Source of the DNA: Thermoleophilia bacterium
GTDB taxonomy: Bacteria > Actinomycetota > Thermoleophilia > Gaiellales > Gaiellaceae
Direction of reading: 5' to 3'
Assembly: GCA_009694305.1 (NCBI GenBank)
Contig: SHVL01000020.1
Span: 1 to 43,251, forward strand
Length of the DNA stretch: 43,251 nucleotides
Under the pieces are notes generated by a model. The model worked only from the letters and a program-made list of their open reading frames with translations, ran no database searches and had not been told where the DNA came from. The position numbers were made by a program, and so were the translations under genes. Within the stretch, counting starts at the first letter, position 1. Every line of letters starts with the position of its first letter. Shown in pieces: positions 1,544-9,143 of this stretch.

Positions 1544-2425
1544 ATGCTCGGGGAGATTCTGACCGCTGTCGTTACCCCGTTTCGACCGGACGGCAGCGTT
1601 GCGCTCGGCCCGTTCCGGGCGCTCTGCCGTCATCTCGTCGAGAACGGCTCGGACGGCATCGTCGTGACGGGCACGACGGGCGAGGCGCCGACTCTCTCCG
1701 ACGACGAACGGTTTGCCCTGTACGAGGTGGCGGTGGACGAGGTCGGCTCCACGCACACGGTTGTGGCGGGGACAGGAACGTACGACACCGCCCACTCGGT
1801 GCACCTCACCGGCCGCGCGCACGAGATCGGCGTGGACGGCTTCCTCGTCGTGACGCCGTACTACAACAAGCCGCCGCAGCGAGGAATCGTCGCGCATGTC
1901 GAGGCGATCGCCGCCGCCACCGACCGGCCGGTCGTCTTCTACGACATCCCGGGCCGTGTCGTTGTTGACGCGGAGCCGGCCACGATCTCCGCACTCGCAG
2001 GAATCGAGAACGTCCGCGCCGTCAAACAGGCGAAGCCTTCGCTCGACGCCGCACGCCATGTGGTCGCCTGCGGCCTCGACCTCTATGCCGGGGACGACGA
2101 TCTCGTGCATCCATTTCTGGAGGTCGGAGGGGTTGGAGGAATCTGCGTCTATACGCACGTCGTGGGACCGCAGGTGAAGGAGTTGGTCGCGCGGTATCGC
2201 AGCGGCGAGCTCGATCGCGCCCGTGCGATCGACGAGGAACTTCGCCCCGCGATCGACCTTCTCCGCGTGCAGACGAACCCGATCGCGATCAAGACGGCGC
2301 TGAACCTGCTCGGTCACAATGTGGGTGGCTTCAGGCTGCCGCTCGTCGATGCAACCGCCGAAGAAGAAGCCGCCGTGCGCGCCTGCCTCGAGCGGCTTGG
2401 CCTGCTGCAACCGCTTGCCGCCTGA
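1544..2425 (+). CDS. dapA: 4-hydroxy-tetrahydrodipicolinate synthase
   Basis: DapA condenses pyruvate with aspartate semialdehyde, the first committed step to diaminopimelate and lysine. The 293-residue protein has the family length and all key residues at E. coli numbering: T44/T45 in GTTGEAP, Y133 and R138 in YDIPGR, and the Schiff-base lysine K161 in AVKQAK. The start follows a TACAAT box by 6 bases with no Shine-Dalgarno, which suggests a leaderless message. It is separated from dapB by 159 bp and probably has its own promoter. Confidence 0.96.
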   Translation: MLGEILTAVVTPFRPDGSVALGPFRALCRHLVENGSDGIVVTGTTGEAPTLSDDERFALYEVAVDEVGSTHTVVAGTGTYDTAHSVHLTGRAHEIGVDGFLVVTPYYNKPPQRGIVAHVEAIAAATDRPVVFYDIPGRVVVDAEPATISALAGIENVRAVKQAKPSLDAARHVVACGLDLYAGDDDLVHPFLEVGGVGGICVYTHVVGPQVKELVARYRSGELDRARAIDEELRPAIDLLRVQTNPIAIKTALNLLGHNVGGFRLPLVDATAEEEAAVRACLERLGLLQPLAA

Positions 2426-2532: not shown

Positions 2533-2538
2533 TACACT
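2533..2538 (+). promoter_or_regulatory. -10 box ahead of the RNase J leader ORF
   Basis: TACACT lies 8 bases before an ATG at 2547 that opens a 10-codon leader ORF, not the RNase J gene itself. A leaderless transcript from here would begin at the leader peptide. Confidence 0.45.
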
Positions 2539-2546
2539 GCAAAACG

Positions 2547-2579
2547 ATGCCCCAAACGTCCAACAGGCGCGAACAATGA
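2547..2579 (+). CDS. 10-residue leader peptide upstream of RNase J
   Basis: ATG at 2547 encodes MPQTSNRREQ and stops with TGA at 2577-2579, which overlaps the RNase J ATG (ATGA). The leader sits directly downstream of a TACACT -10 box. RNase J has at best a weak AGG as ribosome site. The arrangement suggests leaderless initiation on the peptide followed by coupled reinitiation on RNase J. This is inference; there is no homology support for so short an ORF. Confidence 0.4.
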   Translation: MPQTSNRREQ

Positions 2580-4225
2580 GCGACACACTCCGCATCATCC
2601 CGCTCGGCGGGCTTGGCGAGGTCGGCAAGAACATGACCCTCTACGAGTTCGACGGCGAGCGCATCCTGATCGACGCAGGGCTCGCGTTCCCGCGGGACGA
2701 GCACCTCGGCGTCGATCTCGTCCTGCCCGACTTCTCGTACCTCGAAGACCGGCCCCTTCTTGCGATCGTGCTGACACACGGGCACGAGGATCATGTGGGC
2801 GCTCTCCCGTACGTTCTGCGCGAGATCGAGGTCGGCGAGGTGATCGGCACAAAACTGACCCTTGCGATGGTCAAGTCGAAGCTGGACGAGCACAAGCTCG
2901 GTGCCTCGACGACGCTGCGCGAGGCCGATCCCACGAGCAACGGGATGCAACTCGGCCCGTTCAAGCTCGAGTTCATCAGGATGGCGCACTCGATCCCCGA
3001 CTGCTTGGCGATCGTGATCGAGACCCAGGCCGGGCGGGTGCTCCATACGGGAGACTGGAAGCTCGACCACACGCCGGTTGACGGCCTGAAGACCGACGTC
3101 GGCAAGTTGGCCGAGATGGGCAACCGCGGCATCGACCTGATGCTGGGCGACTCGACGAACGCCGAGAGGCCCGGGATGACCGGATCCGAGCGACTCGTCG
3201 GCGAGGCCTTCCGTCAGCTGATTCCGACGAGAACAGGGCGTATCCTCGTCGCGAGCTTCGCATCGAACATTCATCGGATGCAGCAGGCGGCGGAGGTGGC
3301 AATTGCCAATGACCGCAAGGTTGCTCTCGTAGGCAGGTCGATGCGCAAGAACATGGGCATCGCACGGAACCTCGGCTACGTCAATCTCCCCGAGGGGTCC
3401 CTCGTCTCGCCGAAGGAGGCGATGGCTCTTCCTCCCGGCAAGGTGATGATCCTCTGCACCGGCAGTCAGGGGGAGCCGATGTCTGCCCTCACCCGGATTG
3501 CCTACGGCGACCACCAGAATGTTGACGTCGAGCGCGGTGACACGGTGATCATCTCGGCGAAGCCCGTTCCGGGCAACGAGTTGCGCGTCCATGATTCGAT
3601 CAACCGGCTTGCACGTCTCGGCGCGGAAGTGCTCCACGAGGAGGTCGCGATGGTGCACGTCTCGGGCCATGCCTGTTCGGAGGAGTTGCGGACGCTGCTC
3701 TCGCTCGTGCGGCCCAAAGCGTTGATGCCGATTCATGGCGAGTACCGCATGCTTGCCGCCCATGCGAGGCTCGGCCGCGACGCAGGAATACCGGCCGACG
3801 GGATCATCATCGCCGAGAACGGCTCCGTCGTCGAGTTGACACACCGAGGGGTCAGGATCGTGGACAGGATCGCAGCCGGCGTCACGTTTGTGGACGGTCT
3901 CGGTGTCGGTGATGTCCAGGACGTCGCACTCCGCGACCGGCGCCGGCTCTCCGAGGACGGCGTCCTGATCGTCGTCACGACCGTCGCTCTCTCGGATGGA
4001 GGTGAGATCGCGCCACCCGAGTTGATTGCCAGAGGCTTCGGTGACAACGAGGAACTGCTCGAGGAGTTGCGCGAGGAGGCAGATCGGATCGCCGAGGAGC
4101 TCGCCGAGGACGGCATCACCGAGATCAAGCTGCTGCAAGAGCACATGCACGACGGAATCGCAAAGCTGGTGTACGACCGAACGCGCCGGCGCCCGATGAT
4201 CTTGCCCGTGGTGATCGAGGTCTAG
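2576..4225 (+). CDS. rnj: Ribonuclease J
   Basis: RNase J is a metallo-beta-lactamase/beta-CASP nuclease with endo- and 5'-3' exonuclease activity in mRNA decay and rRNA maturation. The 549-residue protein starts MSDTLRIIPLGGLGEVGKNM and carries the zinc motif HGHEDH near residue 68, a downstream HTGD motif near 157, the beta-CASP segment with GSQGEPMSAL, and VSGHACSEEL. The C-terminal domain is complete. RNase Y is also encoded in this window. Its start overlaps a 10-codon leader ORF (ATGA), and its stop overlaps the next gene by one base (TAGTG). Confidence 0.95.
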   Translation: MSDTLRIIPLGGLGEVGKNMTLYEFDGERILIDAGLAFPRDEHLGVDLVLPDFSYLEDRPLLAIVLTHGHEDHVGALPYVLREIEVGEVIGTKLTLAMVKSKLDEHKLGASTTLREADPTSNGMQLGPFKLEFIRMAHSIPDCLAIVIETQAGRVLHTGDWKLDHTPVDGLKTDVGKLAEMGNRGIDLMLGDSTNAERPGMTGSERLVGEAFRQLIPTRTGRILVASFASNIHRMQQAAEVAIANDRKVALVGRSMRKNMGIARNLGYVNLPEGSLVSPKEAMALPPGKVMILCTGSQGEPMSALTRIAYGDHQNVDVERGDTVIISAKPVPGNELRVHDSINRLARLGAEVLHEEVAMVHVSGHACSEELRTLLSLVRPKALMPIHGEYRMLAAHARLGRDAGIPADGIIIAENGSVVELTHRGVRIVDRIAAGVTFVDGLGVGDVQDVALRDRRRLSEDGVLIVVTTVALSDGGEIAPPELIARGFGDNEELLEELREEADRIAEELAEDGITEIKLLQEHMHDGIAKLVYDRTRRRPMILPVVIEV

Positions 4226-4779: not shown

Positions 4780-4812
4780 GCGCGCGGGGAGAGGCTTGTG
4801 TCTCTCCGGGGT

Positions 4813-4818
4813 TACGCT
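4813..4818 (+). promoter_or_regulatory. -10 box of ribokinase remnant
   Basis: TACGCT stands 6 bases before the ATG at 4825, the same layout as at dapA, crcB and uppP. The promoter appears preserved although the gene is broken. Confidence 0.45.
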
Positions 4819-4824
4819 TTGCCC

Positions 4825-5346
4825 ATGCCACCCCGGATCACCGTCGTCGGATCGGTCAACCTCGATCTCGTCGTGCGCTGCGAGACGCTGCCGTGCCCGG
4901 GGGAGACCGTCAGCGGAGCGACCCTCTCACGGTTCCCCGGAGGCAAGGGAGCGAATCAGGCCGTCGCCTGCGCGCGTCTCGGCGCTGATGTGCGACTGGT
5001 TGCTGCCACCGTCCGACGCGGTTCTCTGCCAGCAGGAGATCCCCGACGCTGCTGTCATTGCTGCGTGGGAGCAGGCAACGGGAATGTTCTGTCTCAATAA
5101 GGAGCAGTGTTGCTCGAGGACGGGGACGAGGTTGCGCGTGCGGCACCACCACACGTGGAGGCCGTGGACGGCACCGCTGCCGGTGATGCGTTTACGGCCT
5201 GCCTTGTCGTGTCGCTGCTCGAAGGGCGCGGTGAGGAGGAGGCGCTGAGCCGTGCCTGCGCCGCCGGTTCGCTCGCAGCCTCGCGCCTCGGAGCCCAACC
5301 GTCGCTGCCGACCGCAGCCGAGATCGACGCGATCCTCCGCCGCCAG
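4825..5346 (+). pseudogene. rbsK: Ribokinase, broken by two internal deletions
   Basis: Ribokinase phosphorylates ribose; intact proteins are about 300 residues. Here frame 1 gives the N-terminus (ITVVGSVNLDLVVRCETLP, then FPGGKGANQAVACARLGADV) and then runs into non-homologous sequence and a stop at 5098-5100. A second frame (about 5000-5096) encodes LPPSDAVLCQQEIPDAA and AAWEQATGMFCLN, typical of the ribokinase middle. A third piece from 5107 encodes the C-terminus with the catalytic DGTAAGDAF motif. Roughly 70 and 80-100 codons seem missing at the two junctions, judged from family length. I infer a pseudogene; assembly collapse is the alternative. Confidence 0.8.
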
Positions 5347-8190: not shown

Positions 8191-9143
8191 ATGAGAAATA
8201 GGAAGATGACGACGCTGCTCACAGGCAGCATCGCGATTGTGTTGGTAGCGATGCTCGCTGGGGTAGGGCTCGCCGCCGGTGGCAAGAAGGCCGCCGCTGG
8301 TGATACCTGTCTCGTGACAGACGTGAGTGGCCTGAACGACAAGAGTTTCAACGCGCTGGCCAACAAGGGCCGCCTCGACGGTGAGAGGGTGCTCGGCGTC
8401 AAGACGTCGGTGTTGCAGTCGTCCAAGGAGTCGGACTACATCCCGAACCTTCTCGCGTGTGTTCAGCGCGGGGCCGATCAACACCGTCGCCGTGAAGTTC
8501 CCGAACAGCAAGTTTGCGATCATCGACTAACCGCATGGTGCGCTGGCGTCCAGGCCGGCGAACACGCGCGGCATCCTCTTCCGTGAGCAGGAGGCCGGGT
8601 ATCTCTCCGGCTGGCTCGCGATCAAGCAGCTCACGTGGCAGAAGAAGCCGCTCGTGATCGGTGCCGTCGGAGGCTTCAAGATCCCGCCGGTCGATCGCTA
8701 CATGGCGGGCTACAAGGCTGGCGCGGAGGCCGCCAACCCGAAGGCAAAGGTTCTGCTCGGGTATGCGCAGAGCTTCAGCGACCAGAGCAAGTGCAAGGAA
8801 ATGTCGCTGCTCCACATCGACCAGTGCTCGCAGGTCGAGTTCTCGGTAGCAGGTGGGTGCGGGCCCGCATGAACGGGTTGACGCCGACCAGGCCTATCTT
8901 GGTACGCACATGCTGACGAGCGCCGTCAAGCGTGTCGATGCCGGTGTCTCTCGCACCATGAAGCAGGCGAAGACTGGCAGTTTCCGGGGGTACGGCAACA
9001 CGACCGTCTCACTCCGCTCTGGTGGCGTCGGACTCGGCAAGATCTCGCCGAAGGTCCCGGCTTCGATCATCGCTGAAGAGAAGGTGCTCGAGCACAAGAT
9101 CCGCACCGGCAAGCTGAGGAATATTCCGACCGAGGTGAAGTAG
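8191..9143 (+). pseudogene. BMP/PnrA-type substrate-binding lipoprotein, broken
   Basis: Intact proteins of this family bind purine nucleosides or sugars and feed the ABC transporter that follows. Three pieces lie in three frames. Piece 1 starts at ATG 8191 (GGGAGG at 8179-8184) with a signal peptide and VTDVSGLNDKSFNALA. Piece 2, from about 8477, has INTVAVKFPNSKFAIID, an in-frame TAA at 8528-8530, then GILFREQEAGYLSGW and IPPVDRYMAGYKAGAEAA. Piece 3, from about 8877, has VDADQAYLGTHMLTSAVK. About 10-15 codons appear to be missing at each junction. No single full-length product can be made. Residual frames suggest recent decay. Confidence 0.85.

Follow-up and report, generated by a model that had tools for sequence, protein, structure and literature searches.

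A ten-codon mini-ORF at an inherited leaderless-type promoter may deliver ribosomes to the RNase J start in a thermoleophilian bacterium

The RNase J gene (rnj) in the window, the whole 43,251-nt stretch of Thermoleophilia bacterium DNA that was analysed (genome G000, 2.47 Mb in 98 contigs), is directly preceded by an open frame of ten codons whose stop codon overlaps the RNase J start codon. On balance we lean towards the reading that ribosomes enter at this mini-ORF, at the 5′ end of a leaderless mRNA, and pass onto RNase J by reinitiation at the ATGA overlap. The sequence-only reading of this DNA had described the elements of the arrangement, and all of them are present in the sequence: TACACT at 2533–2538, 8 bases, ATG at 2547–2549, ten codons encoding MPQTSNRREQ, and TGA at 2577–2579, which overlaps the RNase J ATG (2576–2578) to give the ATGA. 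The size of the mini-ORF (10 codons, 2547–2579) is inside the range of 5–50 codons taken for coupled leaderless small ORFs. The features referred to below are as follows:

1544–2425, forward strand: dapA, the gene upstream of rnj (TIGR00674, 261.6 bits, cutoff 206)
2533–2538, forward strand: TACACT, the −10 box (TANNNT) of the presumed rnj promoter (congener alignment and family counts)
2547–2575, forward strand: 29-nt stretch, present in this genome only, that separates the rnj ATG from the leaderless position (congener alignment)
2547–2579, forward strand: mini-ORF MPQTSNRREQ, with a presumed leaderless start at 2547 and TGA at 2577–2579 (sequence)
2576–2579, forward strand: ATGA stop/start overlap (sequence)
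2576–4225, forward strand: RNase J (rnj), 549 amino acids (TIGR00649, Pfam)

The rnj product was identified by its match to TIGR00649 (547.7 bits; cutoff 400) and by the Pfam domains RNase_J_b_CASP and RNase_J_C, and it is 92% identical to the RNase J of the closest congener, G004. The nearest named relatives bearing RNase J are metagenome-assembled Actinomycetota and Thermoleophilia. No in-frame ATG, GTG or TTG was found upstream of the rnj ORF (2576–4225). A second RNase J, 49% identical, occurs in the congener G001 (G001:C4, L009), and the window genome has no match to it at the thresholds used.

A search of 103 genomes of the family gave 93 RNase J matches in 91 genomes. Upstream sequence was read for 88 of the 93, after exclusion of four 5′-truncated matches and a paralogue of 49% identity, and 87 loci were counted, L175 being dropped because its sequence stops at the edge of a contig. 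In 75 of the 87, a TANNNT box precedes the start codon of RNase J by 6–12 nt (24, 18, 18, 12, 2 and 1 loci at spacings of 6, 7, 8, 9, 10 and 12 nt, respectively), compared to a background of 0–2 of 87 in ten other upstream 12-nt windows. The commonest boxes are TAGACT (35 loci) and TACACT (22 loci). Passages of two published reports (PMC3160421, PMC3898074) place TANNNT about 12 bp upstream of the start codon in actinobacterial leaderless genes. Because the box adjoins the start in 75 of 87 loci, and given this published meaning of the signal, most members of this thermoleophilian family probably translate RNase J from a leaderless mRNA. The RNase J −10 box (TAGACT and similar) takes its first three bases from the dapA stop codon TAG in at least seven family loci (L133, L139, L149, L152, L154, L159 and L164); these seven were read by eye, as the dapA-tail pattern used gives false matches (for example L137 and L146).

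Among 49 RNase J loci from other families of the class, few (L231, L237 and L254) have a box near a plausible RNase J start, and the leaderless RNase J promoter thus appears to be mainly a trait of this family. Several of the class loci outside the family have a Shine-Dalgarno sequence before RNase J, and in about ten of the 49 the RNase J start overlaps the stop codon of a long frame that stays open for 93 codons or more upstream (L177, L180, L181, L240 and L258 are examples); this figure was used in place of a tally of 32 of 49 ‘coupled’ loci, which counts any RTGA and is too generous. The frequency of such overlaps outside the family, together with the position of dapA directly upstream on the same strand, would accord with RNase J being made mainly from a dapB-dapA-rnj read-through transcript, with the box and the leader secondary. 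However, in the window RNase J lies 150 nt beyond the dapA stop, with no Shine-Dalgarno sequence, and the box is retained in 75 of the 87 family loci, and we consider a mainly read-through origin very unlikely.

Alignment with the congeners places the mini-ORF at the position of the family's RNase J start. The sequence CCGTACACT aligns in G004, G001 and G003, and is identical, with the same 8-nt spacing, in G004 and G001. Both the sequence and the spacing are kept in the window; after the CG that follows, ATG and 26 more bases precede the RNase J ATG. At the position of the leader ATG, G004 has the RNase J start itself. By these comparisons, the box at this spacing before the leader ATG is inherited and goes beyond chance. 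An mRNA beginning at the leader ATG, as had been proposed from the window sequence, thereby gains support by inference, its box and spacing being those of the family's predicted leaderless RNase J promoter.

In the window, 37 nt lie between the end of the box and the RNase J ATG, and the window locus belongs to the 12 of 87 in the family that lack TANNNT 6–12 nt before the RNase J start. The leader mini-ORF is absent from the 86 other family RNase J starts, and no leader-like mini-ORF was found in the 49 loci of other families of the class. One other box-spaced start was seen in the 87 loci (L030), and it lies in RNase J's own frame. Since the box and spacing are kept as in the family, and the 29 extra bases occur only in the window genome, the leader thus appears to be a recent insertion, seen in this one genome only.

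No copy of the 29 bases was found elsewhere in the 2.47-Mb genome at up to 3 mismatches. Tandem duplication was considered as their origin and rejected, as the local alignment scores against upstream, relative-promoter and downstream sequence were no better than those of shuffles (fractions of 0.72, 0.90 and 0.71 of the shuffles, respectively, reached the score). An N-terminally extended RNase J was likewise rejected, with no in-frame upstream start and nothing comparable in 87 relatives.

The stretch might instead be a consensus or assembly error, or be truly 30 bases long, such that RNase J keeps its leaderless start and acquires ten extra N-terminal residues, or such that there is no insert at all. 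We judge this to be quite unlikely. The assembly does consist of 98 contigs, the species is represented by one genome, and small deletions or changes of frame are seen in two further genes of the window on comparison with G004 or G001. However, the 29 bases are novel and have no other copy in the genome, the sequence on either side and the reading frame of RNase J are undamaged, and none of the 87 family members has a comparable N-terminal extension beside the box; moreover, the other defects in the window are deletions, and an artefact here would be an insertion, which is less likely. The two broken genes are a ribokinase (PfkB family, window 4798–5340) with two internal deletions relative to G001, and a BMP/PnrA-type ABC substrate-binding protein (BMP-type lipoprotein, window 8191–9140) that, compared with G004, has an internal stop codon and two short deletions. 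Both may be genuine pseudogenes or products of faulty assembly, and they indicate that the window is not clean, whether in its assembly or in the genome itself.

Initiation signals were examined in a 430-kb sample of the window genome. A box at 6–9 nt is present in 62 of the 290 called genes, compared to ~4.6 expected from positions 20–59, and a box at 6–11 nt in 69 of them. On the strength of this excess, leaderless initiation is taken to be common in the window genome, and the proportion is near the actinobacterial average of 19.2% for the leaderless signal given in a passage of PMC3160421. The 22 nt leading up to the RNase J start at 2576 have an anti-Shine-Dalgarno pairing energy of −2.5 kcal/mol (median −3.2 for random coding positions and −5.55 for genes without the leaderless signal), so RNase J in the window appears to lack both a leaderless 5′ end of its own and a Shine-Dalgarno sequence. 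A sigma-70 scan of 2200–2900, which does not cover actinobacterial TANNNT promoters, gave no full −35/−10 match. With no adjacent box and no Shine-Dalgarno sequence at RNase J, leaderless entry at ATG 2547 followed by reinitiation at the ATGA would be the best explanation.

We hypothesize that members of the family normally translate RNase J from a leaderless mRNA that begins at the RNase J start codon, and that 29 bases were added at this point in the window genome. Transcription would still start at or beside A2547. The ribosome would start at the 5′-terminal AUG, read ten codons, stop at the UGA (2577–2579), and then reinitiate at the overlapping RNase J AUG. The mini-ORF would thus act as a ribosome loader in cis, in place of the lost leaderless RNase J start, and the sequence of its peptide would not be expected to matter.

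The leader codons score −6.2 bits, compared to a median of +2.1 for real gene starts and −5.8 for off-frame positions. They resemble non-coding sequence, and no selection on the peptide is visible. The sequence-only reading had gone further, and had proposed that the leader ties the level of RNase J to ribosome behaviour or to control by RNase J itself. The leader does sit at the presumed 5′ end of the mRNA, and RNases are often autoregulated. However, the leader is absent from 86 family and 49 class loci, its codons give no sign of coding-like selection, MPQTSNRREQ contains no run of codons for a single amino acid, no terminator-like site was found on the + strand in 2200–2900, and an Rfam/riboswitch search of the window at the gathering threshold returned no family. 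A regulatory leader of either kind is in our view highly improbable.

The leader is not conserved, an outcome that the sequence-only reading had itself named as refuting its proposal; on this count the regulatory role fails and the structural reading stands. In relatives, the ATGA at the start of RNase J did recur: the start ATGAGCGA is found also in G004, G001 and G006, all without the leader. Because close relatives already start RNase J in this way, the overlap is weak evidence, and any stop-free insert with a length of 2 mod 3 would therefore yield it.

A precedent is provided by a glutamate dehydrogenase-like gene of the window genome (L188:3713–4987), which from its sequence we take to be gdh. 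This case was found after the fact, through the scan of the 430-kb sample. In the gdh region (L188:3693–4987, on G000:C2), TATGAT is followed by 9 nt and then by a GTG mini-ORF of 7 codons ending in ATGA. The genus comprises seven genomes, of which five have gdh upstream sequence; the G003 match lies at a contig edge and starts at residue 39, and the close match in G006 is confined to residues 238–424. All five, the window genome and the loci L260, L261, L262 and L264, have TANNNT, 9–10 nt, and a GTG mini-ORF that ends in the gdh ATGA. The mini-ORFs have 7, 8, 9, 8 and 7 codons (VGHGSSA, VSEEPTRR, VRARRSNSR, VRAARSSR and VSDGATV), and their sequences are dissimilar. The anti-Shine-Dalgarno energy at gdh is fair in L260 (−7.7) and lies between −1.9 and −5.2 in the other four.

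The gdh survey comprised 30 loci drawn from 79 genomes with a match, and none of the 25 loci from other family members has the mini-ORF layout. An AGGAG-like site precedes gdh in 23 of these 25, 20 by energy and three by eye (L274, L278 and L289, where the script put the gdh start too far downstream and the site was read before the likely true start); of the remaining two, L292 looks directly leaderless and L283 is weak. In the genus, a leaderless mini-ORF appears to have replaced the Shine-Dalgarno sequence at gdh, with its length free and its frame relation kept. The conservation of this layout in the genus supports the mechanism proposed for rnj. The earlier suggestion that RNase J depends on reinitiation is likewise favoured, by inference from the gdh layout and from the lack of a Shine-Dalgarno sequence or box at the RNase J ATG.

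The mini-ORF could also be a passive by-product of the recent insertion, with no contribution from the leader; RNase J would then be initiated directly at ATG 2576, after a short 5′ UTR that has no Shine-Dalgarno sequence. This would fit the absence of the leader from all other surveyed loci, its non-coding-like codons, and the low cost of the overlap where the RNase J start of relatives is already ATGA. Coupled mini-ORFs are also not clearly enriched in the 430-kb sample: three box-spaced mini-ORFs with an RTGA overlap were counted (rnj, gdh, and a third that was merged with another row), compared to 1, 3, 0, 3, 2, 4, 1 and 1 at eight control spacings (mean 1.9). On the other hand, ATG 2576 lacks a Shine-Dalgarno sequence, the same layout is kept at gdh, and an AUG at the 5′ end would be expected to capture ribosomes in actinobacteria, judging from passages of PMC4633059 in which an RTG at the transcript 5′ end is both necessary and sufficient for leaderless initiation. 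We regard a passive leader as unlikely.

The sequences allow a wider reading, in which ATGA-joined leaderless mini-ORFs would be a general, sequence-independent ribosome loader in the genus, replacing Shine-Dalgarno sequences and direct leaderless starts. In that case the gdh mini-ORF would predate the diversification of the genus, that of rnj would be a very recent gain, and the start mode of RNase J would have shifted from overlap with an upstream gene, to a leaderless start, to a mini-ORF with reinitiation. We put this forward tentatively and find it doubtful; if it is true, RNase J depends on leaderless initiation and on ribosome recycling. The rnj locus has the appearance of a young start-site change, with a mini-ORF in one genome at the position occupied in relatives by the leaderless start of RNase J itself, and gdh in the same genome would be the finished, conserved version of a mini-ORF start. 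The rnj and gdh sequences provide a concrete set for testing whether leaderless mini-ORFs can replace Shine-Dalgarno sequences.

Several known systems resemble the rnj leader. Attenuator leader peptides are likewise encoded by a short ORF before a gene; unlike them, the rnj leader has no repeated codon and no terminator, and is not conserved. Judged by titles and the starts of abstracts, the literature on RNase J in connection with leaderless mRNAs, autoregulation or leader peptides (PMC3848588 was checked) contains no leader at rnj, and, judged in the same way, no report of leaderless RNase J in this family was found. In common with the ATGA termination-reinitiation pairs treated in part of PMC6728339, rnj has the stop/start tetramer ATGA, but its upstream partner is a ten-codon ORF and not a gene, and its downstream start lacks a Shine-Dalgarno sequence. 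The same passages indicate that loss of the Shine-Dalgarno sequence usually lowers reinitiation in the E. coli pairs tested, which counts against reinitiation at rnj. With actinobacterial leaderless genes, as characterized in passages of PMC3160421 and PMC3898074, rnj shares the box and spacing, except that the presumed leaderless start codon belongs to the mini-ORF and not to RNase J.

The closest likeness is to the ‘coupled’ leaderless small ORFs of mycobacteria, which, in the passages of Shell et al. 2015 (PMC4633059) used here, are joined by RTGA to the next gene and are over-represented. The peptides of such ORFs need not be conserved, the layout is kept in relatives in some examples, and cysteine-rich leaderless small ORFs are mentioned as well. 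In M. tuberculosis, leaderless small ORFs are described in part of PMC9094748 as pervasively translated and mostly without signs of selection. The rnj leader agrees with the mycobacterial coupled ORFs in having an RTG at the presumed mRNA 5′ end, a very short ORF, a TGA within RTGA, and a peptide that is not necessarily conserved. It differs from them in belonging to another class of Actinomycetota, in preceding RNase J, in being known from sequence alone, and in arising by apparent insertion at a promoter that in relatives would be leaderless for RNase J itself. A layout kept in relatives, which is not a strict property of the coupled class, was found at rnj in 0 of 86 others, and at gdh in five of five. 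By analogy, the rnj leader fits the known type of coupled leaderless small ORF, at a new gene.
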